Assembly: GCF_037975245.1 (NCBI RefSeq)
Contig: NC_092576.1
Span: 19,430,111-19,494,110 of the forward strand
Origin: Apostichopus japonicus
Taxonomy: Eukaryota; Echinodermata; Holothuroidea; Aspidochirotida; Stichopodidae
Reading direction: 5' to 3'
DNA length: 64,000 bases
Shown here: one piece after another, positions 10,110 to 63,876 of the stretch
Layout of the letters: every line of letters begins with the position of its first letter
Position numbering within the stretch: position 1 is the stretch's first letter
Program-made: the position numbers and the translations under genes
The notes under the pieces: model-generated
What the model saw: the letters and a program-made list of their open reading frames with translations, nothing else
Told to the model about the DNA's origin: nothing
Databases searched by the model: none

Positions 10110-13100
10110 ATGACTGGTAAGTTTGTAAATAAAAAAAGAGATAGTGAATAATTAGAGTTAGAGTTAACATTATTAAATTTGAACTCCTTTATGAATACAA
10201 TATCGCAATACGTGTTCATAATAGCTGAAGAAACCAAGTGTACTTACATACGTACGATACATAATTCATGCCACGTAATATTTCAATATGGTATATTACA
10301 CACAATGGCGCACAAGATTACAATGCCGATGAAATATGACAATGACAACGATCATGTCAATGGCGTCTACGATGACGATGACGGTGACAATGACGATGAC
10401 GATGACTATAATGAATATTTTAAAATGTAAATTGTAATGCACATGGCTAGCCTGCAGACCATGTGTATCAAGCAGTAATGTCACACTTTATTGTACAAAG
10501 GAGGATGCTAACATTATTGCCTTTACTTGAATTGTTATGTGTTTGTATGTTGTATTAGGTATGGCTTAACTTCAGTGTATTTGTATGTATAGTTTAACTA
10601 GTATATATGTATGTATGGTTTAACTACAGTGTATTTGTAGGTATGGCATTAATACAGTGTTCTAGTATGTATGGCTTAACTACAGTGTATGTGTAGGTAT
10701 GGCTTAACTACTGTGTAATTGTATTCGATAATTGTGAAACATATCGAGGTCATTAAAGAGCATGTCACTTTACTTTCAACATTCAATATTTTAGCAGTGG
10801 CGTAGGAAGGTACTTTTGAGTTGGGGGGGGGGGGGGCTGAAGACTGATGGCCGGCCTGGGGGAGTGGTCTAAGGGGAGGGGGTGTCCCCTTCACCTTTGG
10901 AATTTTTTTGCATTTCCGGGTGGCCTCAGATGCAATTTGGTGCAATATAGCACACTTCAACACCCACTCCATTTTGTAAATAATTTTGCATTTTCACCTG
11001 GCCTTAGATGCAATTTGGTGCTCCAAATGAGATTTTTTTTTTTTTCCGCCAAAAAGTTCTAAGCACCAAGTTCAGTTAGTTACTTACTGATGATTATCCA
11101 CAACCGCACAAACAAGGCATCACCATGTTGAGAATAAGATTGGAAAAAATCATGACAGATTATTTTAAGTGTTGAGTGTTATATTAGACTCGATCACTCC
11201 CTGATATACAGGATATAAAAATGAAAAAGGGGTTTTCTGAATTGCGAAGCGGGGGTGGGGGCGGAATGATACTTCCGCCCACCCACCGATATTTTTCACT
11301 GGGGGGCTGGCGCCCCCCCCCCCAGCCTCCCGGTTCCTACGCCCTTGTATTTTAGTATATAGTAGGTACTGCCATAATAAATAAATGCGTATGATTAAAT
11401 TTACCCTTAAAACCGTTAGGTCTATATTGCAATATCTTGTGCTAATCATATATAGGCACGATTAAAGACTCCGTCAATGCAACCGTTCGAAACAGTTTTC
11501 ATTTATGGTGGCACACCCCAGACGCCCTTGTTATCTGGCCAATTAATTCAGAAATACAATCCTATCGTTATTTCAGTCAAGAAACATAACCTCTCTTCTG
11601 CCTCCACAACTGACTGTTTCGTTCGAACATTTGACGTCAATTATCCACCTTAGAAGCGAACGTATCATTATAATATTAATGAATTCTCGTTGATTAACAT
11701 AAGTTTATAACCGTTGTAATGACAGCATGTCAGCCTAGTTCAAAACAATCAACTTGAAAATATTGATGATGACAGTATGTGTGCGAATGTACATTGAGAC
11801 GTTATTCACATTCCTCTCTTGCTTTTGGTTACAAAATAAGCTTGATTATTTGACCGACAGTTTGTGGAAGTGGCATATGCCTTTAAGGTTCGCGTTTGTC
11901 CGAGAAAAACGGTCGCAACTTTTTTGGGGAATTTTTTGTGTCAAATTTGGGAGTAACTTTTAAAATTTCTGTTGTAACAATCATGACCATGGTAACTTGG
12001 CTTTTGCATGTTTTATTGATTGATTTTACACTAAAAAATCATTCTGTAAGATTATCAATGCATAGCCCACTCTTCTCACTTATTCGTAATGTAGGAATGG
12101 CTCATTAAATGAATGATTATTATAATTAAACGTTCAAAGATATATTAACATGAACGCTTGGCTAAACAGTACAGTGCACTATATTGACATGTAGTTAACG
12201 CAGTACTGTGCGCGTTTCACGTTGGCCGTTGCCAAATCACATACACATACATTTTGAAACGTAACAAATTATATACTAAACGGGGTGGGTGTGGTAGGCT
12301 AAAGAACAATAGTTAAAAGTATTGGCATTATCATACTACCGAACCTAGCCTAGGAGTTGGAGGACAGCGTTACAAATTACAGATAGACTATACTTTAATA
12401 TTGATAAACGGTGGAATGATTATTGCAAAAATATTCAAGGTAAGTTAGTTTTTGAGTGAATTTTGTGTCGCATTTTTGGTCGTAACAATAAGTAACACTG
12501 CATTTAGTTTTAAGACGGAACCATATTTTTGGTCGTCAGTATATAATCTCCGGTCGTGAAGAAAATACCGATTTCGGCGTAAAACGTTTACCTTGTATGC
12601 CGGAAATTAAGAAAAAGGATTGAATTAGTTCCTCTTTTAAACCCTAGAATTGAAAAAAAAGAGTTATATCTGAAGGTTTTCTTTTCATGGCATAGTTATA
12701 CAAAGTAAACCACTTCCTTATAATTCTGAACAAGACATTCAATGCACCATTAACACGCCTTTTGAATTGATTCTATATATGCAACCTTATTTACATATCG
12801 TGCTCATTGTTTGAGAAGTTGGCTTGCATGACAGTGATGTATATGAAATGTGTACAAAGCACGCGCACAATGAATTTTTTTCTGAAGTGTATTTAATAAA
12901 CCCCACACTATATACAGTGAAAGCAAGGCAAATCAAACATTTGGTTTAAAATGGCACTGTAGGCCTATTGGGTTTTAACATATTTGGACTTTGTCACATT
13001 AGCATTGAAAGCATGCAGGTCAACAACAATTCGTGTTGGTTATTTGTATTTGTATTTTCCCTCCAGTATACGTATAAAATTTATAGAGAGGAGTCATAAA

Positions 13101-16100
13101 ATACCTCAACAAGACGAATAACTAGTATAAAAAGTGATTTTATTTTAAGATGATAGGATATCATATCAAATACGTTTACACATACAAAAGTTAATACATA
13201 AAATGATATAACAAACAGACTTCAACAAACAGTCCAAGCATTAACTAGTATAAAAGGGAAAAATGTTAAGATGATAGGTTATAATATAAAATACATCTAC
13301 ACATACAAAAGTCAATACATAAAACGATATAAGAAACAGACTACAACAAAAATTCTAAGTGCTTGGATGGAATGTATAAAGCAGCATGGTTCATAAATGA
13401 GTTACTGTAAACTTACGTTTGGTATTTTGTGGGGATTTCTTAGATTTCTGCTCAATTTGTGCAGGATACTTTTTAGTTCAGTATATAGAGGGTGATTCTA
13501 ATACTGTAATGAATCTTATTTGCCATTCTTGTAAACTCAGTTCTTGCAGCAGCATTTACTTTTTCTAAAAGTATATCTAAATTAAATATAGCTGATGTGT
13601 ATTTCAGAAACTTCCTTCTTCTTTCTTTGCTTTCTTACAATATAAAATGGTACCAGACAGGCACTGCATAGATCACATGTGCCAGGGTAGAATAAATAGT
13701 ATCGGAAACATTTTCGTTAGCATTTTCGTTAAAGAGAGACACAACGTAAGCGACACTAGATATAATATACTTTTTTCATACTTTGATACATTGCAAGAAA
13801 AGGTCAAACTGTCGTCGCTGTATACTCCCAGTTCTAGGAGTAATAGGTTAACAAATGCACGAAACAATGTTATCCACTCAACATTAAATATTCCAGATCA
13901 ACAGCCTCCTCCATATGATAGCAAGTCGGGAATTCCTCCTCAACAAGGTTACCCGCCTCAACAAGGTTACCCGCCTCAACAAGGTTACCCGCCTCAACAA
14001 GGTTACCCGCCTCAACAAGGTTACCCGCCTCAACAAGGTTACCCGCCTCAACAAGGTTATCCGCCTCAGCAACAACAAGTTACAGTGGTACGTATAAGAC
14101 TGATATTAACTATGGAGAAAATGTAGTTAGGGCTACAAACAATGATAATATTATTTCTTTTTTAATTGTATCTCTCAAAGGAATATTCAGAGGCAGATGT
14201 TCTAACGTTTGTTATTAGCAATATTGTCAAACATTATCACAGCATATTTCCAATCCATATCTCAATATATCGACCCATTTATTTTATTATACAAAACTAA
14301 TTATTTCCACAGCTTTATAAGTACGCTGAAAACCTCAGGACTTGTTTTAATAGAGTCTTTCAAAGTTCTGTACCAACTTTTCAAGCATTCGTAATTATCA
14401 AAGGAAACAACGGAGAGCCAAACGATTCGTACAATCGAAACCTGAAATGAGATGTCAATGTTATTGTAGAATACCAACTTTAGCGTATTATATATCCATT
14501 AGGAGTTTCACATAGGCGTGTCATCAATTGGCATGTCGAAGACAGGAAAGAGAAAGAGATAGTTTGAAACCTATAGGCGCCATACCTTTTAACATATAGC
14601 CGTGATAGTCTACTTAAAGTGATGAAATACTTTTAATACTATAAGGACAATACATTTGAACATTTATGTTAGATACGTTGAAAATATTCCCGCATATGTT
14701 GTAACATATAGGCATGCTACTGTTACGATACTCTTGAATATATATAAATACATTTAGATTTATGTCTTTTCTTCTCCTTCGCTGTCTTCGGCATGTTAGT
14801 TTCAAATATGACTCGCTAATAATTACGTAAGTCGCCATACTTCTATTATAATATTAAATGCTGATATTTATGTAGACATTCCTACACATATTTGAAATCT
14901 CAATACTGTTTTCCACAATCATGGAATATTTGGCTCTCCTTTATAAAACAACAACAACGGGATTATCACCTATGTAATGTTATATACTTTGAGTTATTAT
15001 AGTCCTGAGCTCACTAAGGTTATAAATATTTCTCCGTTTGATTGGCATTTTCTTACTCCATACCAGCAGATCACGGGTGAGTGCAGGATTGAACATGGAG
15101 GAATGTGGCCATGGTGTCGTTTATATCGAGCTGGAATGTGGGGAAGTGTGTGTGCGTGCCCAATACTACCCAATAGTGGTTACTTATGACATCATAACAC
15201 TGTTACATACATAATAGTGTTATGATAAACTAATGGCCGATAGTACCCCGATATGATTTGTTACATGTATAGTTTGTTATGCAAAGTAGCTAATCTTGCT
15301 ATATTTCCCGTGTATAGATCAACAATGTCGCTGCCGCGTCACAGCCTGCTCCTGTTACAATTGTTCGTACAACCCAGGTACAACCTAATGACTACTTGGT
15401 ACTTGCCATTCTGGTCACCATTTGCTGTTTCTTACCTACTGGTATCGTGGCTATTGTATTTGCAGCTAAAGTAAGTATTTTATGAGGATCATTGTCACCC
15501 TAGCATATTCCTGGCTAGTACAGAATGATCAGATTTATAACCCTTTGTTTGGTTTCCTACATTCAATATCTTCAGTGTTGCACATAAATATGCTAGAACA
15601 AATGGTCATCATGAGAATGTATTGAGAGGTCAGACCCTCTCATCCTCCACCGTCCCAAACCCCTCACCGAACACCCTCCCCCACCAAAAAATTAAAACTT
15701 GCGTAAAACTTTAGAAGCTAATTAAAGTTTGACTCAGCAGGCCTATTGGAGAACTTTATAGCAGTCTCTTGTTAATTGTGCATAACTCTTTATTACCAGT
15801 TCAATAGTACTATAATCCCATATAATCCCGTTTATATTAATCCGCCGGCGAATAGTTTAGTGTCATCATTTTAATTTTGAAAAAAAAAACTTGCAAATTG
15901 GACCCCATTTCCCAGTCTGACATTTTTCTTTGCATAGTGAAAGTAGTGCACATAGTCAATGATGTCACATTTATAAGGGTGGGTGAGTAAGGCGAGGGGT
16001 ATGGGTAGGGGTATTGGGCAGAGAAGGTTGGTCCACGCAGGAGCATAGCCTACCTTCGTACTAGAGAGAGAAAAAAATGTCCCATTTTTATAGAGTCATG

Positions 16101-16588
16101 GACTTTAAGTTTTATTATAATATTGATACATGAGTTTTCATTTTTCAAAATGTTGTTATGATCTTCATAATTTTAACCCCAATTGATTATACGACTTTGC
16201 GTGCGTGTGTTATATATGTAAGGCATTTATAAGAAAATTTTGGGGAGAGGAGAAGGTACATGTTGACATTTTATATGTGGTTACAGCCCTGTGTGATATT
16301 AATGACATAAAGAAGTTACATTACAGTACGTGTGGGTATAGGCATACGCAGGTATATCACATATCAGTGACAGAAAAGCTTTAACAGTCTTCTTTTTCAA
16401 ATGATAAAATGTCTATTTATATCTTTCCATGTTTATTTCTTGTCAAGGTGAGAAGCCTTTTCAGTAGTGGTGACATACAAGGTGCCGCGCAAGCCTCTGC
16501 AAGCGCTAAGTTGTGGTCGATGATCTCCCTTGGTATCGGTATTGTTTGGTTGGTTGTTGTCTCAATACTTCAAATTGCAGTTTCATAG
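10110..16588 (+). CDS. CD225/dispanin (IFITM/PRRT-like) membrane protein, gene A
   Basis: Coding exons are 10110-10116 (ATGACTG), 13897-14087, 15318-15470 and 16448-16588. All introns have GT/AG ends and phases 1, 0, 0, giving 163 residues. The N-terminus is MTDQQPPPY, with a PPxY motif at residues 6-9. Seven PQQGYP units (17-58) and a linker follow. A CD225 domain spans about 88-150: hydrophobic segment with Cys102-Cys103 before PTG, loop with G125xxxG129 (GDIQG), and a second membrane segment from about 139. Vertebrate relatives are IFITM and PRRT1-type proteins that act on endosomal or plasma membranes. PPxY binds NEDD4-type WW domains in IFITM3, and the paired Cys are palmitoylated there. 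A role in membrane traffic or pathogen entry is only inference here. An alternative 5' start could read through intron 1 into exon 2 from 13647. Confidence 0.85.
10179..10430 (+). repeat. GATGAC-type microsatellite in intron 1 of gene A
   Basis: The end of this stretch (10360-10415) is a run of GATGAC/GACGAT units that reads as Asp-rich in one frame. Related Asp-rich stretches occur at the same place in block P (about 36850-37060) and block B (about 39420-39490). The flanking sequence changes length and frame between copies, so I treat it as an intronic repeat, not an exon. Confidence 0.6.
10795..11347. mobile_element. hAT-like non-autonomous element (MITE, 553 bp)
   Basis: The ends are CAGTGGCGTAGGAA and, on the other strand, CAAGGGCGTAGGAA. 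The element is flanked by an exact 8-bp duplication TATTTTAG (10787-10794 and 11348-11355), the target-site length of hAT transposons. The interior has G and C homopolymers and no transposase. It sits in intron 1 of gene A and is absent from blocks B and P. Confidence 0.8.
11356..13120. other. Intron 1 sequence present only in gene A
   Basis: Block B jumps from the equivalent of about 10600 to the equivalent of about 13005, so this AT-rich stretch and the MITE before it were either gained by A or lost from B. No exon, RNA or repeat array was seen in it. Confidence 0.5.
13122..13358 (+). repeat. Two tandem copies of a roughly 120-bp unit in intron 1
   Basis: Both copies contain AACTAGTATAAAA, AAGATGATAGG and ACACATACAAAAGT in the same order. 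The same pair occurs in block B (39904-40085). Noncoding. Confidence 0.65.
13938..14063 (+). repeat. 18-bp coding minisatellite in exon 2 of gene A (7 units)
   Basis: Seven units of CCTCAACAAGGTTACCCG encode PQQGYP. Six are identical and the last differs by one silent base. Gene B has five units. Near-perfect identity points to recent expansion or gene conversion. Confidence 0.95.
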
Positions 16589-16694
16589 AGACGTATGGAA
16601 AGACAAAGAATATCTCATTATTCTCTCTTTTTTCTCTCTCTCTTTCTCTTTTCATTTTTTTGTAAACTATACTACTCAGATGGCACACCGAATG

Positions 16695-18615: not shown

Positions 18616-18616
<1 letters not shown>

Positions 18617-34600: not shown

Positions 34601-34630
34601 TTATCCTCGCTGTTGAATAAACCAGGTAAC
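34601..34630 (-). pseudogene. Relic CD225 exon 4
   Basis: After an acceptor-like TTTCAG the minus strand reads GTTACCTGGTTTATTCAACA, alignable to the gene C exon start GTCAAAGATCTTTTCAACCG. A stop occurs after nine codons. To its right, 34640-35250 resembles intron 3 of genes C and D, including TGACTTCCTCTTTCG at 34746. This is the tail of a lost CD225 copy. Confidence 0.6.
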
Positions 34631-35053
34631 CTGAAACAAACAGAAGCTAGTAGTTAATGAAGAAAGTTGTACAAGAAAAAAGACTTAAAGGTGCTAAAAC
34701 GCGTCTGTTATTCATGAGTCATAACAATGACAAAACCATATTGAGTGACTTCCTCTTTCGTTTGTGCCTTTCATGACTCTTTAACAATCGATAGGCGGAG
34801 AACGCTAATCAATTCCTTCAATTAAAAGTCAACATCAATCAATATATTAAAAACGATATATTGGGCAGGAGAAGAACGTAATGCTTTTGGCTTTTATGTT
34901 TGCCTTGTGTAAAGTTGTCAAATGCAAATACTTGAATAAAGCATTAGTTTCGTTAAATTTTATGACTAAATATATAAAAAGAACGTAACTCCCTTAGCTT
35001 GTATGATTGCCTTGTGTTAAATTGTATTACGTTATATATTAAATATAGTTAAT

Positions 35054-50300: not shown

Positions 50301-53300
50301 GGGGTGGATAAGGAACCGTAACGGAGAATGGAGGGGGACAAGGCGAGGAATGAGGAACCGTAACGGAGAATGGAGGAGGGAAAATGGGATGCATAAGGAA
50401 CCATAGCGGAGGACAGGGGAGGGACAAGGGGATGGATACGGAACCGTAAAGGAGGATGGGGGAGGGACTAGAGGAGGAATGAGGAACCGTAACGGTGAGT
50501 GGGGGAGGGACAAGGGGATGGATAAGGCACCGTAACGGAGAATAAGACGGACATTGGATGGATAAAGAGAGATGCATACGACTCTACCGGGCAACAAGAC
50601 TGTTGTCAGGATCTTGGAAAATACAATATATCTTATATATTACATTAAATACCGCCGCGGTATACATTCGACAACGTAGTGATTCTACAACAACCAGTAG
50701 ACACTGAATCCAATATTAATTGATCAATTAATTAATGTTGCTTTCGGACGATGAGTTGTGGTAAAGCCTTCCTTCCAACCTAATTATTATGAAAGGAAAA
50801 TATGCTAGAACTAAGTAGGAAAAGGATTGGGGTAAGAAGGCACCTTAAGCTCGGAAGTCCATTCTTCACGCACTGTAAAAGCTTCTAAAGAAGGGGAACG
50901 TACCGTAACTTTGTTTGGGATATTTAAGGATATGGTGTATGTATACTTTGCTAACCGAGAGTATATTTTATCGTTCTACTTCGGAGCCGGTTTGATGGAA
51001 TTATTGTTATGATGAAACAGAAATAGGTCTTGACCAACAAATACTACCATTGTCTAGGTATATTACCATCACATAGTATACATATGTGTATCTGAGGTTA
51101 ACATTCATACAATTCAGTTACATGATATTATCAGTATTCTAGTAACTCTTCATATTATCAGCGATCTGTTCCTGGCTACTAAGTCATCCTTGACATGAAA
51201 GGCGGGGGAATTAAATGACAACCAGATCATCTAACCGATGCAGTCCCGATGAGGTGCACATGGGTACGTTTCTACACCCCTCCTCTTTTGTGAAAACCAG
51301 GCCGAAAAGTGTCCATTTTGCTATTAAGAGTGTACCTTTTTGTAACTGTTGTAATATTATAAAGTGCTCATGCACTCTCACCAATGACAACATATATTTT
51401 CTGCTATAATGCTTAAAGGGGCGTGGTCGTCATGAAATATCGACAGCAATTTATTTTTCAATTTTCTCATTGGTTTAAGGTTTGTTGCCAAACAAAAATG
51501 TTCATTGTGATGTAAGAGCTTTTAAAATAAGAAAAAATAAATTCGTTTTCAGTATTCAATGTCAAGCTTTTAAAGTTTTTAAATATATATACTGCAGTAT
51601 TTTAAATTATTACACTATGCGCAAAGATCGGTAGTGACTGGTTAGATGGATTCTACTTTAACTAAAAGAGAAGTATAAATGGTATCTGACCACTAATTTC
51701 CAAGAAGCCTGCCGACGACATGTGTGCAAAACGCAGGCGTTGTTGCCACAGCGGCAATATGAAGTGCATGCGCTACATATGCACAGTCCTCATCGCACTG
51801 GATCTGGATCTGGAGTGATACTACTCAACTCTCCTAAAAGGGGTAAAACGAGTAGGGTGGTGCAGACTTGTTTAAGCTGTGATTGGTTTCTGGCTGTAGT
51901 GTTGGGCGACAGCCGCTTTGAAGTTATTCTTGTCCTCGATTTCTTTGATGTGTTGTGGGAGGGCGTTCCAGTCTATTAGTTTTTTTGGCATGAATGAACA
52001 TTTTAAACAGTTTTTGTTGCAGGGAATTTGAATGTAAGATCCGTGTCTTGAAGAGCGGACGACCGGGCGCAGAATTGTTTGCGTTGGTATGGCAAGGCGA
52101 CCCGATTGGGCTTGGTGTAATATGCAGACTCTAGTCACTCTTCTTCTTTCCTCCAACGGTTCCCATTTCAGTTCTTGTTTCATGTGTGACACACTGCTAG
52201 TCCTTCTGTAATCGGCGGTTACGAACCGAGCACCCCTGTTTTGAACGGATTCTAGTTTCTCTTTAAGTTCTTTGGTTGACGGATCCCATACAGATCCACA
52301 GTACTCCATTGTTGGTCGCACTAAAGATTTGTATGCTAAGTTTTTGACCTGTTTTGAGCATGAATGTAAGTTTCTCTTTATAAACCCTAGGGTTCTGTTT
52401 GCCTTTGCAGCAGTATAATTTACGTGTGAGTTCCATGACCAATTTGACGTAAGTGTTACCCCAAGGTAAGGGTATTCTTTCTTTTCAGCCAACTCTGTAT
52501 TATTAAGTGTGTATATGAATTTTTTGGGAGATTTTGAATGAGTCACTCTCAGAACATAACACTTTTGGGCATTAAATGCCATTTGCCACTTTGACTGCCA
52601 TGCAGTGAGCACATCTAAGTCCTTTTGTGACATGCCAGCATCCTCAGGACCGGATACTTTTCTGAACACGATGCAATCACCTGCAAAGAGTTTCACACTA
52701 GATGTTAAGTTCTGAGGCAAGTCATTAATAAACACTAGGAAGTCCATGGGTCCCGTAACTGTTCCCTGAGGAACACTAGATTTCACATCTACCCATTATG
52801 AACATTTACCATCTATCACTACTCGCTGTTTTCTTTGAGTGAGGAATGCTTCTGTCCAATTAAGTGCTTTTCCCCTTATACCATAACGATCAAGTTTGAG
52901 AAGTAATCTGCGATGTGGAACCTTGTCAAACGCTTTCGCGAAATCCTTAATAATCATGTCCACCTGATGTTTTTGGTCTAAGAGACAAGCTATCTCATGA
53001 GTTGTATTTATCAGCTGTGTCTCACATGAGTGGTTTCTACGAAAGCCGTGTTGATTTTCGCACAAAATTTGGTGTTTATCCAGGTGTTGCATGACATTTG
53101 ATTTCAGTATGTGTTCGAATATTTTACTCGCAACAGACGTCAGGTTCACCGATCTATAGTTGGATGGTACAGTACGGTCCCCTTTTTTAAAAATGGGAGT
53201 TATGTTTGAAATCAACCAGTCTGTTGGTACTACAGCTGTATCTAATGAAAGTTGAAAAATGATTTTGACTGCTGATCTCTTCTGCTGTTGTTTTGAGATA

Positions 53301-55648
53301 TTTGGCTGAAATTCCACGTATTTCGCGGAACCTTTCCCACTCCTCAGGAGTGTTACTCTTGACCGCTCTGTTATATGCTCCTTGCTTTTTTCTTTGATGG
53401 CGTTTAATTTGAGATGTTATCCAAGGTGATGTTTTCTTACCCCTAACTATTTTTGAGGGAACATGTTTCTCCTCTGAGGCCAAAACTCTATCTTTGATCT
53501 CATTCCAAAGATTATCTGCATCGGTCACAGATAAATCTCTACTGGCGAAATCATCACTTATTTTCTGTGCGTCCGCCTTCAAATCTTCAGTATTTGCTCT
53601 CTGATAGAGGTAGATCTTCCTAGGACGCTGGTTAGACCTTTTAACAGAGGTGTTTAACACAATAGATACAATCCCGTCGTGGTCACTGATACCAGGAATC
53701 GGAACCCGAATCGGAACCGTTGTTGTGTATGCTGTAAGTGTGTGTGTGCAGACTTACATAACAGGCAACCAGTTGACAACTCACCTTCAGTATATAACAC
53801 TACATTCAGTACCACCACCGAAACATTCGCTCCAACGTATATTTTGTGGATTTCGAAAAAAAACCGTCTTTGAAAATTACAAACAAAGATGTCAACTGAA
53901 CTAGCGTTACAATCATCATTGTATTCACAATTTTCCGGTGGAGACCCTTCATGTTGTATTACGACAGCTCAATAGGGCCATGATAGTTTTTTTTTCCGAC
54001 TATTTTTGTCGATTTTTTTAGTTAAAAATTCGTATTTCTGAGTTACAAGTTTGTTTTTCTGACTTCTTTTTTTCGTTTTACTGGCTTTCTGTTTCGTTTT
54101 CAGAGTTTTGTTTTTCCTTTTTCAGACTTTGTTTTTCGATTTTCAGACTCTTATTTTCGTTTTTCAGACTTTTTTTCTTGACCCTGTACCGTTGGTGCAG
54201 TATGTATAATGTGCTACTGTCACGTAGAAATATCTTGTTTGGTATGTGCCGGACAGAGGATGTAATGAAGCTATGACTAACGAGTAAGCCGACATCTACA
54301 GACGATCGACTCACCGTTTACCAGCATGGAACCAAAATGAATGGAAATGAATGCATGGAACTCATATATGATTTTAAATTTGAAACGCAGTTTGCCTCAA
54401 ACTTGCCTTATCAGAAAAACGAACAAAAAACGAAAAAGTTTAAATACCCGAGCCTGCAATAAAATGTAGGCAATTGCTCCCTAGACAAGCTAGCAGTCAT
54501 TACAGCAGTACTTTTACAGTGATCGTAGACAGGCGAAGCGTTTGACTTTCCTAGTAACAACGCAAATGCAAAAACATTGCAAGTATAGGCTAGGCAAAGT
54601 CGGAAAACGGAGAGGGGGGGTAGGAAAAACGGGAGGAAAATTTCAGAGAACCAAACAAAAAAACTCAGAAAAACAGGGGGAAAAATACGAGAAAAAAAAG
54701 AGCAGAAGGACAACAAAAAAAAGTCAGAAAAACGATTTTTATTTATTTTTTATTTTTTATCATGGCTCTATTGAGCTGCCGTAATTTATAGACCCTTGCG
54801 TTGAAAAAAAAAAATGTTTTCAAGAAATAACTTCTATATCTATGCAGGTGGGCCAAGATACCTGCCCGCTGGCTGTTACGTTACATGGCATCTTACTATA
54901 AATGTGAGAGTTTCTAATAGGACTCATTTATCAGAGACATTTTGAGATAACTTTTGTTGTTTGTTCGCTTAATCAAAATTAGAAGAAATAACTTCTTTAT
55001 TCGTGCAGGTGGGCCACGATAACTGCCCACTGACTGTCGCGTTAAATGGTACCTTATTGTACATGTGAGGGTTACCTATAGGACTCATTTATCAGAGACA
55101 TTGTTGAGGTACCTTCTGCTGCTTGTTCGCTCAATCAAAATTGGAAGGGTGTGTAAAATCTCAGTGCAGGGTGCCCCTATAATTTGTTGCTTTAATTAAA
55201 GCTACTTCTGTTTTCGATAAATTTCGATTGAAAAATTAATTTCAGGTTAGTTTTAATGCTTATTAACATTTAAAGATATAACATTTGCGATCAAGTGATT
55301 GAAAGAGTAAAATGTAAGTTTTCAAACAATGGTCATTACAGCTTAAAGTTCCCTAAAACTTTGACGTTTTTGGATGTCGATGAAAAAAGTCTTTCATATA
55401 TGCAGATTCTGATTATATTAGCTTACATATCTGGAATCACAAGACTATACTCAAAGCGGTTACACAACTCAGATGATGGAAGAACCCTATTCCTCTCACT
55501 GCCTGCGTTGTTTTTATCAAACTTGTTTTCAACAAATGAAACACAACGCATGCAAGTAATAACAGTTTTATCATATTGTTGACCAATGTATTATATAGCT
55601 TTAGACTTATTTCCATACAAGGAATTTAAGTTGTTACTCACCAGACAT
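47354..55648 (-). CDS. CD225/dispanin (IFITM-like) short membrane protein, gene D
   Basis: Coding exons in transcript order are 55648-55642 (ATGTCTG), 50044-50016, 48663-48532 and 47497-47354. Junctions are GT/AG with phases 1, 0, 0, giving 103 residues. The N-terminus is MSDPNPQQGKSG. The CD225 domain keeps Cys41-Cys42 before PTG and the loop GDLDG. It differs from gene C by only a few residues (for example Ala for Ser in PRDAQ, Ile for Lys in AAAIAKK, NIAMGT for NITMGT, which removes the sequon). Intron 1 is 5.6 kb and contains a 42-bp minisatellite, a broken LINE and a foldback element. Assignment of exon 1 rests on its position, phase and the conserved promoter. Confidence 0.82.
49130..50044 (-). 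repeat. Repeated exon-2 region of gene D
   Basis: Copies of the roughly 315-bp unit found in gene C occur near 49130-49270 plus 49545-49720 (interrupted by about 275 bp unlike C) and at 49725-50044. The last carries the functional exon 2. The earlier copy has a degenerate exon (CCTGCCCTGCCATGCTGAG on the plus strand). Confidence 0.6.
50166..50560 (-). repeat. 42-bp minisatellite in intron 1 of gene D
   Basis: About nine units of the GGAACCGTAACGGAGAATGG family, fewer than the dozen of gene C. Open frames up to 143 codons follow from the period. Confidence 0.85.
50561..51412. other. Intron 1 of gene D, no exon seen
   Basis: 50565-50735 and 51267-51412 match block C (31150-31350 and 31365-31500). 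The part between has no match in C. Confidence 0.45.
51872..53720 (-). mobile_element. Broken LINE (jockey/CR1 type) in intron 1 of gene D
   Basis: On the minus strand it starts within the endonuclease C-terminus (GISDHDGIVSIV, about 53700-53660). A linker is followed by a frame change near 53310 that removes the start of the reverse transcriptase. The RT continues through NITPIFKKGDRTVPSNYRSV and KDFAKAFDKVPHRRLL, an in-frame TAA (52793-52795), SVPQGTVTGP, and FAGD where the catalytic FADD should be. The thumb runs to the stop at 51872. At least three lesions make it inactive. It lies in a 2.5-kb stretch (about 51413-53950) absent from block C. Confidence 0.88.
53961..54782. mobile_element. 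Foldback-type element in intron 1 of gene D (822 bp)
   Basis: Orthologous to 31502-32224. The ends start ACGACAGCTCAATAGGGCCA and, on the opposite strand, ACGGCAGCTCAATAGAGCCA. Both halves are built of the same roughly 17-bp unit in opposite orientation. It has about 100 bp more than the C copy. Confidence 0.7.
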
Positions 55649-55730
55649 CACGGGAACGTTTTCAGGCAAAGAGTACAAGCTGCTGTTAGTATGTTTAATT
55701 TCGTTGTGAACTAGTTTACATAGTGAGTGG

Positions 55731-55744
55731 TTTAAATATATTTA
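55731..55744 (-). promoter_or_regulatory. Candidate TATA box of gene D
   Basis: TTTAAATATATTTA, 83-96 bp before the start codon, identical to gene C. Confidence 0.4.
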
Positions 55745-55856
55745 GGATTATCTTGCTGGCGGCAAATTAGTGAGTCTTATTAAACAAAACGGAAATGGAA
55801 AGGGGAAGTATTAACAATGTCGTAGTATGCCGGCTATTCATTGTAAAATATCAACT

Positions 55857-55872
55857 ACGTCACTTCCTCTTC
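55857..55872 (-). promoter_or_regulatory. ETS/CRE-like composite site upstream of gene D
   Basis: GAGGAAGTGACGT on the gene's strand, about 210 bp before the start codon. Conserved with gene C. Confidence 0.4.
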
Positions 55873-56179
55873 GGCAGAAAAAATGGTGTTCGTGAGACAT
55901 TGAGGGAAGAACTTTCAGGTAACCAATAAGATATTTACAACGAATTTCAAAATCTGTTGGTACCAGACTTGATCTTTATACTGCTAGAGAAGAAAGGTAA
56001 ATGTCGAAATCATGCTTCTTTGATTTACCATAAATCGCCCATGAAACGATGGAACTACATGTATGAAATACAAAATGTTATAACCCCAAATTTGATGGTA
56101 TCATACAACATTGTTCACCTCACAACTGGCGGTTCTATACACATTATTACATCCCAAATTCTATAATTTGAATTATTGT

Positions 56180-56585
56180 TATATCTCTAATTCGAATTCG
56201 TGATGTATCTCTAGTTCTTTTGGATATCTCTAATTCGAATTATTGATATTTCTAATTATTTTGGTACCTCGAATATAATTTAGTATTTATTTATTTCGAA
56301 TTTGGATTCGAGAACTCTTTTCTTGATATCTCTTATTCAAGTTTGGATATCGTGAATTCAATTTGAGATATCTAAGATAATTTTCCCTTCTTAATATCTT
56401 TAATTTATTTCTTGATATCCTAAATTTTTAGATATCTTAAATAAAATTCAAGATATCGAAAATGCAATATCTGATATCTCAAATGTATTTGAAGATATCT
56501 GAAAACAAATTACAGATATCTTAAATTAGTTCGAGATATCTGAAATTAATTGTAGATATTTCGAATTAAATTGAAGATATCTGTA
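56180..56585. repeat. GATATC-rich array upstream of gene D
   Basis: Same array as 33540-33966, with single-base differences that mostly fall in spacers. Confidence 0.8.
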
Positions 56586-57161
56586 GTTTTTGAATAAATT
56601 TGAACACGGCGTTTCATACGTCCTTGTTAAGTTTTAATTTCTCTGAAAATGTACACAAACGTTTCAATGCCATGGATATCCCGGATTGAAAAAAAAAATG
56701 GTTGGAATAAATATTTTGTACGTTTCTAATATTTTGTGATGATGATTTTTTTTTTAATACTTTTTTACTGTTAATTCACGTATATGTCCATAACTCTTTA
56801 AAGTTAATAAAATAAGCAAAAGAAAAAGAAAGAGACACAAAAACAAGTTTCTTTTCAATGTATAATGAAAACACTTTCAATATGGGTTACATCTACGTTA
56901 TTCTTGCAAAGAGGTCATTTCTTTGTCAAAGGTAAACGATTCATATACGTACTGTAAATTATATGCAATAGCAGGTGTTACTCTAAACCACATTCGGTGA
57001 GCATGTTTCAAAGATTAGTTTCGACGAGCTTAGAGAATTCATCGGCCACAGCATAATGAATGACGTCATCATGACGTTGTGAGTGCTTCCTTTTATGTTT
57101 CAAATTGAAGATTATCAAAGATTTCATTTTTTTCACATTAACTAAAAGCTAACAAAACGTA

Positions 57162-57380
57162 CTTTTTAAGAAAAGTCATCTAGGAAAGAACCTGGGCACG
57201 AAACCAAGCTACCGAACGACTGATCCGCTCTCAACCCCAGTCCCCTTGCATCGAGACTGTGACTGTGTGATCATCGTCGGAAGTGCATCACCATTCCCCC
57301 CCCCCCCCGAAAGGGAACAAATACTACACATGATCTTAGCCAAAAGGCCGAGAAGCGATGTGGAGGGGTTTTCCTCTCCC
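57162..57380 (-). mobile_element. Retroposon-like insert with U2 snRNA head (219 bp)
   Basis: Flanked by an exact 13-bp duplication CTAACAAAACGTA (57149-57161 and 57381-57393). Block C lacks the insert. On the minus strand it opens with about 21 nt containing a small hairpin. The first 45 nt of U2 snRNA follow, with two mismatches, then a G run and about 130 nt of unknown sequence ending CTTTTCTTAAAAAG. The long target duplication suggests LINE-driven retroposition of a chimeric RNA. Confidence 0.7.
57315..57359 (-). pseudogene. U2 snRNA 5' fragment (45 nt)
   Basis: The minus strand reads ATCGCTTCTCGGCCTTTTGG, then GCTAAGATCATGTGTAGTAT, then TTGTTC. This is U2 positions 1-45 with changes at 30 and 40. 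It includes the branch-point recognition GTAGTA. The Sm site and all later stem-loops are missing, so it cannot be a working U2 gene. Confidence 0.85.
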
Positions 57381-57459
57381 CTAACAAAACGTAGTATCTG
57401 TTAGAGATATAGGAACTGTTCATGCTGTCAGTACGTGTGTTTTGATGTTTTATATGACC

Positions 57460-57489
57460 TTATCCCCGCTGTTGAATAAATCAGGTCAC
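57460..57489 (-). pseudogene. Relic CD225 exon 4 (block D)
   Basis: After TTTCAG the minus strand reads GTGACCTGATTTATTCAACA, alignable to exon 4 of genes C and D, with a stop at the third codon. Counterpart of 34601-34630. Confidence 0.6.
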
Positions 57490-57557
57490 CTGAAACAAAC
57501 AGAGGATAGTCAGGTGAGTATCCAGGGGGGGCGTTGGGGGCGCGCGCCCCCCGGGTA

Positions 57558-57720
57558 AGAAAAAGAAGAGAGAAAAAAAAGAGAAGAGAAAAGGAAAAAA
57601 AGAGGGGAAAAAGAGGAGGAGGAGAGGAAGGAAGGGAAAATAAAAAGAAGAAAGAGAGAAGAAGGAGAAAAGGAGGGAGTAAAAGAAAAACGCGAAGACA
57701 CCGGGAAGAGAAAGAGGAAC
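57558..57720 (+). repeat. Polypurine tract
   Basis: About 160 nt of almost uninterrupted A and G (GAAAAAGAAGAGAGAAAAAA and similar). Its mirror in the right arm (61798-61960) is polypyrimidine. Such tracts can form triplex DNA and slip easily. Confidence 0.9.
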
Positions 57721-58628
57721 AGTGACATCATTACAGCGCTGAAGGGTGGCCAGTGACGGATCAATGATTTCGTAAAAGTGTGCCTCACCCTACCCCTTAC
57801 ACCGACAACTCCATTTTTTGACGTTTCCATTTTCCTCTCTCACTAATGATCTATATATATACTATATATGATCTATCATAACGCGTGTGTAGAATTGTGC
57901 TATGAAACCAACTGTGGCTGGTCTCGAACTCGACCGTGTCGTCGGGGAACATGACGCATTTTGGGATGGGGGCGATCGCCCCCCCCCCCCATTCAGCATT
58001 TTTTTAAATGATATCGCTAAGTAATTTCAAAATAGAAAGTGCTTAGATGCAACTTACAAGGCCTGGGAAGTGTCATTTCCAGCGATCTGGGAGACATTTT
58101 CGGCCAAAATTTGCTTGTACGCTTCGCGCTAACAAATGGTCCTGGGTAGTGCCATTTCCAGCGATCTGGGAGGCATTTTCGGCCAACATTTTCTTGTACG
58201 CTTCGCGCCAACCTATGGTGGCGCTACGCTTAGATAATTTGCCTACAGGCTTTGCCCCTCCCTTGGCAAATTCCTCGCTACGCGCCTGTTCGAATTTGTA
58301 ACGCAAACAGCAGATATCACATCATAAATCAGTGAGCATGAAAATGGCGTTCCAGGATGAAAATCCTCAAAACTGTCCGACTTGCCTGAAAAAATAGCCA
58401 AAAATTCGTTCAACGTGTCAATGTCAATATCATATAAGCAAGTATCGGTTATTACATCGCATGCCATCATGTACCGTACGGTCCATTCAAATTGCGCAGT
58501 ATACCGCGGGATGCTAATGTAAACAACGACATGTCTCACGTAGATGTATAAAAAGCATGGAGGTCCAATTATGTCAAAAGTTTCTTTTACATTAGTAATG
58601 GCGAATTAGGGGCTGCACCCCCGCCGCG

Positions 58629-59013
58629 CAGTGGCGGAGCGTCCATACGGTCAGGGGGCGGATGCCCCCCCCCCCCCCCCCGACGGACTCAAATCGACTG
58701 CTGGCGCCTTTTACAGCTCTTTACCACTTTTTACTTATTCGCGATTATTGATTTTTTTATTGCGCTCTCATCTACTTATTGACATTTGTCACATTTTGTT
58801 GGTGTAATTTGGCGATGACACCCTATTCTTCGTTTATCTGCAAATTAGCCAGGCCCTGAAAGGGTCATTTCCGCGATCTAGGGAGTATCTTTACTTAAAA
58901 ATTGTCTGTGCGCTACGCGCCGACCAGTGGTGGCGCTCCGCTTAGATAGTGTCGAAAGCGCCCCTACGAACCATTCTCGCCCCTCCTGACCAATACCCCT
59001 AGCTCCGCCACTG
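58629..59013. mobile_element. Nested hAT-like MITE (385 bp)
   Basis: Both ends read CAGTGGCGGAGC on their own strand. An exact 8-bp duplication CCGCCGCG flanks it (58621-58628 and 59014-59021). The interior is noncoding. The inner breakpoint of the large inverted duplication (58716) falls inside it, and the truncated partner is 60806-60890. Confidence 0.8.
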
Positions 59014-59021
59014 CCGCCGCG

Positions 59022-59564
59022 CCTCCTACGCCTATGTGTGTAGTGTTCGGTTTCGGAAATATCTGCTATTTTTTCATTTCCTTCAACCAAGTTTTATAAT
59101 AGCCGTTATAAGAGGTTTCATATTTGTACACCAATAAATTAACTGTGTCTGAATTTTCGAAAATTTCTGACCAACATTCTGCATAACACTTCCCTCTACT
59201 CATGCAATTTTGACCGGTCTGTTAGGGGTTGAAGGAAGTTTTTCTATATTGGTTGTCCATAGATAAAATTTTGTACAACATTATGGGTATGTTTTGAAGT
59301 GAGTTTATTCACGAGAAATGTGAATTTTCAAATTCTGAACAAATTTGGGGCTTAAAACCTTGAAAATTGGGGCTGACGGGTATTGTGGGCCGCGACGTAG
59401 AATCACCTACAAAAGCAAAGACCCACAGGAGATGCGATCAGGTCGAACATGACGTGTGCCGGGTTGACAATCTTCAAAAAGGTTATGGATGGAAAAAAAA
59501 AACTATTAGGAAATACTTGGTTCTCAGGCCAAAAGTGTACATTTGGTTGCTCATTTTAAGCCCG
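59022..59564. other. Interior of the composite element, no gene
   Basis: No domain. A 96-codon frame at 59367-59657 ends in the repeat module and has no recognisable content. Confidence 0.45.
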
Positions 59565-59705
59565 AGAAGTGCCGTTTCCGGTGATCTGGGGGGTATCAAA
59601 ACCAGAAATTTTCTTGTACGCTGCGCGCCAACCGATGGTGGCGCTCCGCTTAGATAGTAATTCGGGCCCCCCGGGTTAGAAAATCCTGGATACGCGCCTG
59701 ATAGT

Positions 59706-60189
59706 AGTTAATGAAGAAAGTTGTAACAGAATAAAGACTTAAAGGTGCGAAAACGCGTCTAGTATAATGAGCTTTTCATGATTCATAACAACGATAAACC
59801 ATATTGAGTGCCTTCCTCTATCGTTTGTGCCTTTCATGACTCTTTAACAATCGATAGGTGGAAAAAGCTAATCAATTCCTTCAATTAAAAGTCAACAACA
59901 ATCAATATATTAAAAACGATATATAGGGCAGGAGAAGAACGTAACTCTTTTGGCTTTTATGTTTGCCTTGTGTAAAGTTGTCAAATCCAAATACTTGAAT
60001 AAAGCAGTAGTTTCGTTAAATTGTATTACGTAATATATTTAATATAGTTAATGAGAGATATATAAATGAGTCACTGTGTTACTATATATCTTACCTTAGA
60101 CCGATTAACGTGCCCATGATTTCCAACGTGAGAGAGACAAATTCAAAGTTTGCACATACTGATCTATAGTTGCACGGGGCTAAACGTTT
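59706..60189 (-). pseudogene. Intron-3-like segment of a lost CD225 copy
   Basis: Continues the relic begun at 57460-57489, interrupted by the 2.2-kb element. It shares GTAGTTAATGAAGAAAGTTG, AACAATCGATAGG and AAAACGATATA with introns 3 of genes C and D and with 34640-35200. No exon remains in it. Confidence 0.6.
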
Positions 60190-60275
60190 ATGGAAGTACC
60201 CAGAGGCGTATGAAGGATTAAATAATGGAGGGGATGTATTAAGAACTGTAACGGAGAAAGAGGGGGGCACAAGAA
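60190..60275 (-). repeat. 42-bp minisatellite, remnant
   Basis: Two degenerate units (GAACTGTAACGGAGAAAGAG) matching 35225-35300. Confidence 0.6.
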
Positions 60276-60304
60276 TGGATAATGGTGCAGTCCCAGTGGC
60301 GATC

Positions 60305-60615
60305 TCGGGAACTCGACCGACGCGACCCCACAAACTACTTGGCCTGTCTCGACCTGGGGGATATCTCGACCTGAGCCGACCTCATAACGACCTCACAACG
60401 ACCTATAACGACCTTAGTTCGATTTTAGTTCGACGTAGTCGACCTGTCTCGACTCAGGTCGGCCAAGTTGGATAGACCTGTACTCGACCTATACTCGACC
60501 AACTCGACCTGTTTCTCGACCTAATTTCGACCAAATCTCGATTTAAACTCGACCTATATCGACCTAAGTCGACCGACCCGACCTCTACTCGACCTGAGCT
60601 CGACCCGGGCGACTG
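60305..60615 (+). repeat. TCGACCT-type short tandem repeat
   Basis: CTCGACCT and ACGACCT cores recur at a loose 10-13 bp spacing about 25 times, with spacers such as ATA, CAT, CTGT and GAG. The repeat is GC-richer than its surroundings. It is not found elsewhere in the window. Confidence 0.75.
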
Positions 60616-60805
60616 GTTCGCGACGGAAATTCGATTTGTCTGCCGAGAATCCCCTTGGTTTCCCAATTGTATAAATTACAGCGGCAATTTTCACCAGGTA
60701 CCCATTAAATTTGGGGACTGCAAAGTAGTAACATCACCATCATGAACCTTGACGTAAACCTGTTGAGCCCAGAGAAGCGCAGACTGCTTACAATGTGGGT
60801 GCAGA
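60616..60805. other. Spacer of the inverted duplication, no gene
   Basis: Unique sequence between the TCGACCT array and the right arm. Nothing recognised. Confidence 0.45.
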
Positions 60806-62028
60806 CTGTAAAAGGCGCCAGCAGTCGATTTGAGTCCGTCGGGGGGGGGGGGGCATCCGCCCCCCTGACCGTATGGACGCTCCGCCACTGCGCGGCGGGG
60901 GTGCAGCCCCTAATTCGCCATTACTAATGTAAAAGAAACTTTTGACATAATTGGACCTCCATGCTTTTTATACATCTACGTGAGACATGTCGTTGTTTAC
61001 ATTAGCATCCCGCGGTATACTGCGCAATTTGAATGGACCGTACGGTACATGATGGCATGCGATGTAATAACCGATACTTGCTTATATGATATTGACATTG
61101 ACACGTTGAACGAATTTTTGGCTATTTTTTCAGGCAAGTCGGACAGTTTTGAGGATTTTCATCCTGGAACGCCATTTTCATGCTCACTGATTTATGATGT
61201 GATATCTGCTGTTTGCGTTACAAATTCGAACAGGCGCGTAGCGAGGAATTTGCCAAGGGAGGGGCAAAGCCTGTAGGCAAATTATCTAAGCGTAGCGCCA
61301 CCATAGGTTGGCGCGAAGCGTACAAGAAAATGTTGGCCGAAAATGCCTCCCAGATCGCTGGAAATGGCACTACCCAGGACCATTTGTTAGCGCGAAGCGT
61401 ACAAGCAAATTTTGGCCGAAAATGTCTCCCAGATCGCTGGAAATGACACTTCCCAGGCCTTGTAAGTTGCATCTAAGCACTTTCTATTTTGAAATTACTT
61501 AGCGATATCATTTAAAAAAATGCTGAATGGGGGGGGGGGCGATCGCCCCCATCCCAAAATGCGTCATGTTCCCCGACGACACGGTCGAGTTCGAGACCAG
61601 CCACAGTTGGTTTCATAGCACAATTCTACACACGCGTTATGATAGATCATATATAGTATATATATAGATCATTAGTGAGAGAGGAAAATGGAAACGTCAA
61701 AAAATGGAGTTGTCGGTGTAAGGGGTAGGGTGAGGCACACTTTTACGAAATCATTGATCCGTCACTGGCTACCCTTCAGCGCTGTAATGATGTCACTGTT
61801 CCTCTTTCTCTTCCCGGTGTCTTCGCGTTTTTCTTTTACTCCCTCCTTTTCTCCTTCTTCTCTCTTTCTTCTTTTTATTTTCCCTTCCTTCCTCTCCTCC
61901 TCCTCTTTTTCCCCTCTTTTTTTCCTTTTCTCTTCTCTTTTTTTTCTCTCTTCTTTTTCTTACCCGGGGGGCGCGCGCCCCCAACGCCCCCCCTGGATAC
62001 TCACCTGACTATCCTCTGTTTGTTTCAG

Positions 62029-62058
62029 GTGACCTGATTTATTCAACAGCGGGGATAA
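62029..62058 (+). pseudogene. Relic CD225 exon 4 (right arm)
   Basis: Mirror copy of 57460-57489, with the same early stop. Confidence 0.55.
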
Positions 62059-62137
62059 GGTCATATAAAACATCAAAACACACGTACTGACAGCATGAAC
62101 AGTTCCTATATCTCTAACAGATACTACGTTTTGTTAG

Positions 62138-62358
62138 GGGAGAGGAAAACCCCTCCACATCGCTTCTCGGCCTTTTGGCTAAGATCATGTGTAGTATTTG
62201 TTCCCTTTCGGGGGGGGGGGGGGGAATGGTGATGCACTTCCGACGATGATCACACAGTCACAGTCTCGATGCAAGGAGACTGGGGTTGAGAGCGGATCAG
62301 TCGTTCGGTAGCTTGGTTTCGTGCCCAGGTTCTTTCCTAGATGACTTTTCTTAAAAAG
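62138..62358 (+). mobile_element. U2-headed insert, mirror copy
   Basis: Same insert as 57162-57380, carried along by the inverted duplication, with target duplications at 62125-62137 and 62359-62371. The U2 part is 62159-62203. Its G run is two bases longer than in the left arm. Confidence 0.7.
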
Positions 62359-62932
62359 TACGTTTTGTTAGCTTTTAGTTAATGTGAAAAAAATGAAATC
62401 TTTGATAATCTTCAATTTGAAACATAGAAGGAAGCACTCACAACGTCATGATGACGTCATTCATTATGCTGTGGCCGATGAATTCTCTAAGCTCGTCGAA
62501 ACTAATCTTTGAAACATGCTCACCGAATGTGGTTTAGAGTAACACCTGCTATTGCATATAATTTACAGTACGTATATGAATCGTTTACCTTTGACAAAGA
62601 AATGACCTCTTTGCAAGAATAACGTAGATGTAACCCATATTGAAAGTGTTTTCATTATACATTGAAAAGAAACTTGTTTTTGTGTCTCTTTCTTTTTCTT
62701 TTGCTTATTTTATTAACTTTAAAGAGTTATGGACATATACGTGAATTAACAGTAAAAAAGTATTAAAAAAAAAATCATCATCACAAAATATTAGAAACGT
62801 ACAAAATATTTATTCCAACCATTTTTTTTTCAATCCGGGATATCCATGGCATTGAAACGTTTGTGTACATTTTCAGAGAAATTAAAACTTAACAAGGACG
62901 TATGAAACGCCGTGTTCAAATTTATTCAAAAA

Positions 62933-63338
62933 CTACAGATATCTTCAATTTAATTCGAAATATCTACAATTAATTTCAGATATCTCGAACTAATTTAAGA
63001 TATCTGTAATTTGTTTTCAGATATCTTCAAATACATTTGAGATATCAGATATTGCATTTTCGATATCTTGAATTTTATTTAAGATATCTAAAAATTTAGG
63101 ATATCAAGAAATAAATTAAAGATATTAAGAAGGGAAAATTATCTTAGATATCTCAAATTGAATTCACGATATCCAAACTTGAATAAGAGATATCAAGAAA
63201 AGAGTTCTCGAATCCAAATTCGAAATAAATAAATACTAAATTATATTCGAGGTACCAAAATAATTAGAAATATCAATAATTCGAATTAGAGATATCCAAA
63301 AGAACTAGAGATACATCACGAATTCGAATTAGAGATAT
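62933..63338. repeat. GATATC-rich array, mirror copy
   Basis: Mirror of 56180-56585, upstream of the first exon at 63870. Confidence 0.8.
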
Positions 63339-63648
63339 AACAATAATTCAAATTATAGAATTTGGGATGTAATAATGTGTATAGAACCGCCAGTTGTGAG
63401 GTGAACAATGTTGTATGATACCATCAAATTTGGGGTTATAACATTTTGTATTTCATACATGTAGTTCCATCGTTTCATGGGCGATTTATGGTAAATCAAA
63501 GAAGCATGATTTCGACATTTACCTTTCTTCTCTAGCAGTATAAAGATCAAGTCTGGTACCAACAGATTTTGAAATTCGTTGTAAATATCTTATTGGTTAC
63601 CTGAAAGTTCTTCCCTCAATGTCTCACGAACACCATTTTTTCTGCCGA

Positions 63649-63663
63649 AGAGGAAGTGACGTA
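63649..63663 (+). promoter_or_regulatory. ETS/CRE-like composite site, right-edge locus
   Basis: GAGGAAGTGACGT about 210 bp before the ATG at 63870, as in genes C and D. A TATA-like TAAATATATTTAAA follows at 63774-63787. Confidence 0.4.
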
Positions 63664-63869
63664 GTTGATATTTTACAATGAATAGCCGGCATACTACGAC
63701 ATTGTTAATACTTCCCCTTTCCATTTCCGTTTGTTTAATAAGACTCACTAATTTGCCGCCAGCAAGATAATCCTAAATATATTTAAACCACTCACTATGT
63801 AAACTAGTTCACAACGAAATTAAACATACTAACAGCAGCTTGTACTCTTTGCCTGAAAACGTTCCCGTG

Positions 63870-63876
63870 ATGTCTG
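63870..63876 (+). CDS. First coding exon of a sixth CD225/dispanin locus (partial)
   Basis: ATGTCTG followed by GTGAGT, the same 7-nt phase-1 micro-exon as gene D, with the full promoter region in front. The remaining exons would lie beyond the window's right edge. The copy could be a whole gene, a truncated palindrome arm, or an assembly artefact. Confidence 0.5.

Follow-up and report, generated by a model that had tools for sequence, protein, structure and literature searches.

Which gene family fills a stretch of sea cucumber DNA in which small membrane-protein genes, gene fragments and near-identical repeats stand side by side, and by what route did it reach its present size? The stretch in question (hereafter the window) is 64,000 nucleotides of Apostichopus japonicus, positions 19,430,111 to 19,494,110 of contig NC_092576.1 in RefSeq assembly GCF_037975245.1, a contig of 46,036,110 bases that we call C16. 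A preliminary description, drawn from the window's letters, had seen in it an expanding 54-kb cluster of IFITM-like CD225/dispanin genes with a possible immune or membrane-defence role. Our analysis favours, at a probability of roughly 0.6, a lineage-specific expansion of PRRT1-type (DSPD-like) CD225/dispanins that would modulate endosomal traffic or fusion and that grew through recent segmental duplication and palindrome formation.

Four-exon genes of the CD225/dispanin family

The window holds four intact genes, A and B on the forward strand and C and D on the reverse strand, as established by motif search in six frames, by splice inspection and by Pfam, in agreement with the four loci claimed beforehand. 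All four follow one common four-exon plan with intron phases 1, 0 and 0, GT-AG borders at each intron and a first exon whose coding part is 7 bases long, and their frames are open over 163 (A), 150 (B) and 103 residues (C and D alike). The CD225 identity likewise stood when the spliced proteins were searched with PF04505, which returned 91.8 bits for A, 92.9 for B, 94.4 for C and 90.5 for D, all four lying far beyond chance and above the cut-off of 27.1 bits. Two subfamilies can be told apart, A and B being long forms that carry PPPY and PQQGYP repeats (an array of an 18-bp unit, with 7.5 copies in A and 5.6 in B), and C and D short forms that lack both and have a second exon of 29 bases. This division had been described correctly, but the added statement that the subfamilies alternate was too loose, the order along the window being long (+), short (-), long relic (+), long (+), short (-), short (+).

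Comparisons with known dispanins point to PRRT1 as a closer relative than the IFITMs. The CD225 part of A matched PRRT1 (9zks and two more entries) and nothing else in the PDB at E ≤ 10 (E 4.5e-16), there being no IFITM chain among these matches in a searched set that may include none, and for C the top PDB match was again PRRT1 (E 2.6e-13), followed by a chance-like one (E 0.54). Neither A nor C reached the cut-off of any NCBIfam family. Pairwise alignment of A with PRRT1 was ungapped and identical at 34 of 75 positions (45%, score 170), and C, likewise ungapped, was identical to it at 29 of 75 (score 150), with the core TICCF.PTGI being common to PRRT1, A and C; against a fragment of human IFITM3, the figures were 18 of 70 for A (26%, score 71, with gaps around the cysteine pair) and 21 of 72 for C (score 82). 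PRRT1 also has a proline-rich N-terminus, as does the long class here (A and B) but not the short one (C and D).

Exon structure was compared with that of described dispanins. The 2012 dispanin paper places an intron between the two hydrophobic segments in eukaryotic dispanins, gives vertebrate DSPA (IFITM) and DSPB genes two exons only and DSPC and DSPD1 an extra N-terminal exon (more than two exons being what PRRT1/SynDIG4, or DSPD1, shares with the genes here), and finds invertebrate dispanins nearer to DSPC/DSPD than to DSPA/DSPB by BLAST, without a stable tree (PMC3282796). In A to D the intron between the hydrophobic segments is the junction of exons 3 and 4, with Kyte-Doolittle peaks at both segments in the two proteins computed (A and C), and four exons were found in 4 of 4 window genes where the IFITM plan has two. 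Our within-genome tree of 28 rows supported only 3 of 23 inner branches. Taken together, these comparisons indicate membership of the CD225/dispanin family and argue against membership of the IFITM (DSPA) branch, a PRRT1/DSPD-like position being the best supported as judged without a rooted tree. The term IFITM-like was thus not supported, given the greater sequence likeness to PRRT1, the four exons in place of two and, on a rough estimate, a seemingly weaker amphipathic moment, even if CD225, GxxxG, the intron between the hydrophobic segments and clustering are all shared with IFITM1/2/3, and an N-terminal PPxY is shared by the long forms with IFITM3.

The array on C16 and its duplicated blocks

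How far the family extends was assessed with a PF04505 profile search of the genome (671,581,487 bases on 35 contigs), which, from 109 candidates scored, revealed at least 73 exon matches. At least 69 of these are on C16 (at least 34 of exon-3 type and at least 35 of exon-4 type), with at least 3 and at least 1, respectively, on contig C18. The 54-kb extent was therefore wrong in scale, as the cluster covers megabases of C16, with at least 64 of the 69 matches falling within 17.80-20.35 Mb and the other five at 4.18 and 7.54-7.56 Mb. A same-strand exon 4 lies within 9 kb of 29 of the 34 exon-3 loci and is missing from 5, and six exon-4 matches stand alone. Long-class exon 1 with its flank gave 24 matches, all on C16, and the long-class exon 2 region gave at least 18 in the cluster among the best 40 of 162 candidates; the remaining 22 of these 40 reflect a dispersed repeat within the query's initial 86 bases. 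All four exon types occur in order and strand at 15 of 21 long exon-3 loci, and one long exon 3 (18658531) contains a stop. Beside these, C16:19114465 and 19118004 match long-gene exons 1 and 2 with no exon 3 detected, as in a broken or incomplete copy, and a second small CD225 group stands at C18:16.65-16.66 Mb (L055, L056), with the core TICCFWPTGIVAI like that of PRRT1 and, in L055, the one exon 4 read from this group, GDRDM and hence no GxxxG.

Besides the window block A-C-P-B-D-D', the chromosome carries copy U at C16:19.24-19.33 Mb, in which all six loci recur in unchanged order, and an incomplete third copy, with A and C, at C16:19.955-19.985 Mb. Over aligned stretches of at least 1.5 kb, the three are mostly 97-99.5% identical, with a lowest value of 94.6%. 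The complete coding sequences that could be assembled are open in 11 of 11 cases (A, B, C, D, A_U, B_U, C_U, D_U, A_D, C_D and the 18.62-Mb gene), a set that leaves out locus L031, whose exon 1 lay outside the sequence covered and whose exon 4 lay outside the alignment. The number of exon-2 repeats varies between near-identical copies, such that exon 2 has equal length in A and A_U (191 nt), is one unit longer in A_D than in A, and is two units shorter in B_U than in B.

At the right end of the block, D and D' form a palindrome with 10.4-kb arms, a 2.08-kb spacer and 99.77% identity over a 10,420-column alignment. Comparing the common 8.5-kb part of the arms with gaps ignored, we counted 10 differing sites within the window block, 8 within U and 12-18 between blocks; 7 sites put arms of one block together, with the cross patterns seen 3 and 0 times. 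These few sites are consistent with a palindrome that formed before the two blocks separated and with some conversion between its arms. The inner 1.2 kb of each arm (57511-58720 and 60803-62012) is a dispersed repeat found at 92-97% identity in at least 36 further places on other contigs (among the best 40 of 8,335 candidates), and this inner-arm repeat includes a 79-bp tandem unit.

Broken loci accompany the intact ones. In P, said beforehand to have lost exons 2 and 3, exon 1 (36664) and exon 4 (37150) are separated by 479 bp in which no match to exon 2 or exon 3 was found, so the locus is broken as claimed; U repeats the arrangement, exon 1 matching at C16:19268329 and exon 4 at 19268874. 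The sixth first exon is likewise real, belonging to D', the right-arm copy of D, whose exons 2 and 3 lie past the window at C16:19499582 and 19500964. Exon 4 of D' was not found by tblastn over the window plus 30 kb, because the duplicated arm stops at window position 48305, inside intron 3 of D, and U contains the same truncated D'. The proposed independent invertebrate expansion, by birth, truncation and divergence, is thereby supported.

The at least two relic exon-4 segments of the preliminary description could not be recognised as exons by tblastn or by shuffle-tested alignment. At E ≤ 1, tblastn over the window plus 30 kb gave five exon-4 copies (A, B, C, D and P), and of two relic candidates, the one at 34629-34680 resembles the end of intron 3 together with the acceptor and the one at 59700-59734 the end of intron 3, while their exon-only alignment scores of 15 and 13 stay below the maxima of 20 and 17 reached among 200 shuffled sequences. 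At 34.6 kb the frame after the acceptor reads VTWFIQQRG and then a stop, with a faint likeness to VKDLFNRGD, and may be a fully decayed exon 4.

Table 1. Coordinates of CD225 exons and palindrome parts in the window, in order of position.
Feature	Positions	Strand	Basis or remark
Gene A exon 1 (MT + first base of D)	10110..10116	+	ATGACTG then gtaagt
Gene A exon 2 (PPPY, PQQGYP repeats)	13897..14087	+	ag...gt borders; 18-bp tandem array
Gene A exon 3 (first hydrophobic segment of CD225)	15318..15470	+	PF04505, splice inspection
Gene A exon 4 (GDIQG loop, second hydrophobic segment)	16448..16588	+	PF04505, splice inspection
Gene C exon 4	28037..28180	-	PF04505, splice inspection
Gene C exon 3	29227..29358	-	PF04505, splice inspection
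Gene C exon 2 (29 bases, no PPPY)	30440..30468	-	Splice inspection
Gene C exon 1	33006..33012	-	Splice inspection
Locus P exon 1	36664..36670	+	ATGACTG then gtaagt
Locus P exon 4	37150..37314	+	PF04505, tblastn
Gene B exon 1	39168..39174	+	Splice inspection
Gene B exon 2 (PPPY, PQQGYP repeats)	41643..41803	+	Tandem repeat, splice inspection
Gene B exon 3	43999..44151	+	PF04505, splice inspection
Gene B exon 4	45022..45153	+	PF04505, splice inspection
Gene D exon 4	47354..47497	-	PF04505, splice inspection
Palindrome left arm (D exons 1-3)	48305..58720	+	99.77% to inverted copy
Gene D exon 3	48532..48663	-	PF04505, splice inspection
Gene D exon 2	50016..50044	-	Splice inspection
Gene D exon 1	55642..55648	-	Splice inspection
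Palindrome spacer, about 2.08 kb	58721..60802	none	
Palindrome right arm	60803..64000	-	Runs about 7.2 kb past window
Gene D' exon 1	63870..63876	+	Exons 2-3 beyond window

Several further repeats were seen in and around the genes. A 43-bp minisatellite occupies part of intron 1 in C (30694-31153, 10.9 copies) and in D (50171-50543, 8.8 copies), and two adjoining open frames in the first intron of D (51872-53416, reverse strand), each encoding a partial reverse transcriptase (PF00078, E 3.6e-7 and 9.6e-14), read as a broken retroelement. The right flank at C16:19514111-19524010 (L022) recurs at 19.34 Mb (95% identity), 20.08 Mb (94%) and 19.20 Mb (about 90%), and the duplicated region therefore extends beyond the CD225 genes. 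On the left, much of window 1-9300 belongs to a dispersed repeat (about 16 kb or longer) that has matches of 3-4.5 kb at 93-97% on C16, C1, C7, C12, C15, C17, C18 and C21 (among the best 30 of 1,541), and next to it, near 9393, lies the left boundary of the duplicated block; an internal deletion seems likely in the window's copy of the repeat, since others are several kb longer near query positions 6231-6405. Elsewhere in the assembly, five COX1 fragments lie on C29, out of order or in pieces, with a whole COX1 on C35, and the C29 fragments may be nuclear copies or a badly assembled mitochondrial contig. Read with five mitochondrial codes (2, 5, 9, 13 and 14), the COX1 of C35 gave a single frame of 517 residues showing the residues expected of the protein under code 9, that of echinoderms; codes 5 and 13 placed K or M where N or I is conserved, code 14 began the protein identically but extended to 875 residues, and code 2 yielded no frame longer than 350.

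Proposed function and competing explanations

Evaluating the motifs of the cluster proteins, we found both glycines of GxxxG kept in 19 of 19 long cores and present in the short class as GDVDG and GDLDG in C and D, a motif that resembles that of IFITM3 and PRRT2. The position aligned with an arginine of IFITM3, which we take to be residue 85, holds arginine in 16 of 19 long cores, lysine in the other 3, and lysine in C and D. All six of the complete long proteins that were read (A, B, A_U, A_D, B_U and the 18.62-Mb gene) contain PPPY, within an N-terminus that is proline-rich in A and B. Through the first segment, the top amphipathic moment over 11 residues, a rough measure calculated from sequence, was 0.30 in A, 0.36 in B and 0.31 in C, compared with a similarly rough 0.47 in IFITM3 and 0.54, in a later window, in PRRT1.

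As to topology, localisation, partners and function, we infer from these motifs and from described relatives that the product would be a small membrane protein with a cytosolic N-terminus, a first hydrophobic segment that probably enters the membrane without crossing it, then a loop with GxxxG and a C-terminal helix that spans the membrane once. The PRRT1 structure is described as a short re-entrant helix plus one transmembrane helix (PMC13262616) and family members are said to cross the membrane once, in type II fashion, with the N-terminus inside (PMC11798926), the 2012 paper having had both termini outside (PMC3282796). The location would most likely be endosomal or plasma membranes, where the proteins might oligomerise through GxxxG and modulate vesicle fusion or cargo recycling, as do PRRT1, PRRT2, TUSC5 and IFITM3. 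In the long class, whose proline/glutamine-rich repeat varies in length, the N-terminal PPPY would probably bind WW domains, as a likely site for a NEDD4-type ligase that would control turnover. The short class, having neither PPPY nor repeat, would then make up the second of two differently regulated forms, a proposal drawn from PPPY itself, from the reported action of NEDD4 on IFITM3 (PMC4532365) and from the endocytic signals that SynDIG4 and IFITM3 are stated to bear (PMC11798926).

Several observations weigh against this PRRT1-type reading. Mouse PRRT1 has GDLVS at the GxxxG position and the short class has no proline-rich N-terminus, because of which the cluster genes are presumably not simple PRRT1 orthologues. 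They differ further from PRRT1, a chain of 306 residues, in their many copies, short forms that lack a proline-rich part, PQQGYP repeats, 7-base coding first exon and variable second exon. The cysteine pair of the first segment is CC in A, C and D and FC in B, and in 14 of 19 long cores the leading cysteine of the pair is replaced by phenylalanine. PRRT1 acts in AMPA-receptor traffic in the brain, a role that need not carry over to these proteins. Lastly, ratios of nonsynonymous to synonymous change (N/S) are near 1 in parts of the genes, such that some copies could be drifting.

The likeliest of the alternatives is a neutral passenger expansion in which a repeat-rich, palindrome-prone region copies its genes and most copies have no distinct function, which we rate as possible but not probable. 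Substitutions were counted pairwise in 28 of the 34 C16 exon-3 loci, comprising 19 long (including 18658531 with its stop), 6 short and 3 of neither class (4176587, 20350421 and 17841914); two loci with no recognised donor (7544829, 7560553), four with no exon 4 (17912736, 18833732, 19329699, 19501009) and the C18 loci were left out. Tree-based counts used 20 sequences (17841914 included), or 18 after removal of two evident pseudogenes. Long-class pairs gave a synonymous divergence (dS) of 0.093, a nonsynonymous divergence (dN) of 0.075 and a ratio of 0.80, and the tree-based N/S in the exon 3 core was 1.02 with 20 sequences and 0.78 with 18, values that suit a neutral expansion, as do the truncated P and D', the 5 of 34 exon-3 loci without exon 4, the stop in one exon 3 and the dispersed repeat in the palindrome arms. 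Set against it are the 29 of 34 loci that retain a paired exon 4, the 11 of 11 open coding sequences, and long-class pairwise proportions (pN/pS) of 0.53 (exon 3 core) and 0.62 (exon-4 codons 1-30). On the tree, exon-4 codons 1-30 gave 0.63 with 20 sequences and 0.65 with 18. The short class had a ratio of 0.50 with very few changes. Evidence that the core is constrained is thus mild and depends on the method, and variation is greatest where the second helix nears the C-terminus, by change that may be relaxed or diversifying, with exon-4 codons 31-43 reaching 1.28 pairwise and 1.19 (20 sequences) or 1.72 (18 sequences) on the tree. Positive selection was considered and set aside, as neither pairwise nor tree counts gave significant diversifying selection.

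A more doubtful explanation would make the cluster functionally analogous to the IFITM locus: a family with antiviral or anti-fusion action that arose independently in echinoderms out of PRRT1-type dispanins, and in which long forms bearing PPxY correspond to IFITM3 and short forms to IFITM1. Clustering, rapid turnover, GxxxG, the arginine aligned to one of IFITM3's and the near-N-terminal PPxY confined to the long forms (NEDD4 being described as controlling IFITM3; PMC4532365) speak for such a family, and the last 13 exon-4 codons compared have the highest N/S. The contrast of this tail with the rest is, however, not significant (Fisher p 0.53 for 20 sequences and 0.14 for 18), the amphipathic moment appears, on the same rough measure, weaker than in IFITM3, and the proteins are closer to PRRT1. 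Upstream sequence, counted in 1-kb stretches of six loci (D and D' being near-identical) against 50 shuffles, is divided in the same manner: STAT-like sites numbered 12 against a shuffled mean of 4.3, although the largest shuffle held 14, and no NF-kB-like site was found in these stretches. As candidate immune promoter motifs, the ISRE-, STAT- and AP-1-like counts were rejected, all being within the shuffle range.

A bolder version, in which this large, palindrome-bearing and still-duplicating array is a convergent IFITM-like barrier to entry or fusion built from PRRT1-type proteins and not from IFITMs, its classes with and without PPxY sharing out the endosomal and the surface membranes in the manner of IFITM3 and IFITM1, strikes us as improbable. 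The sea cucumber is an animal not known to have interferon. An immune or membrane-defence role for the cluster is speculation.

That the copies are mainly unmerged haplotypes or assembly artefacts, with a real gene number far smaller, is the least probable explanation and an artefact is unlikely as the main cause, for although U and the window block share loci, order and near-identity at 170-200 kb apart and the assembler is described as retaining haplotype information (PMC10344927), the 19.96-Mb third copy is about as close and a diploid has just two haplotypes, the three right-flank copies listed above show differences of 5, 6 and about 10%, which argues for real paralogues and not solely unmerged haplotypes, U has stretches of about 19 kb and 10 kb without counterpart in the window block, and the cluster genes at 17.8-18.8 Mb are distinct sequences.

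Meaning for the dispanin family

Among the papers listed in searches of an open-licence library, some judged by title and abstract beginning, we found no report of this sea cucumber array and none that joined CD225 with echinoderms. Earlier papers put human dispanins at 14 (PMC3282796) and give ten IFITM/dispanin proteins for Aplysia (PMC9334734), which like the present array is an invertebrate multigene CD225 set, whereas here 29 paired exon-3/exon-4 loci stand on one invertebrate chromosome. This is a large radiation of the dispanin family; we consider the expansion real and larger than first described, in a gene family of a kind already known. It suggests that the PRRT1-type lineage, besides the IFITM branch, can be amplified. 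The near-identical paralogues form a natural set differing in their PPPY part, repeat number and C-terminal helix, and would be useful for asking what parts of a dispanin determine its membrane and cargo.

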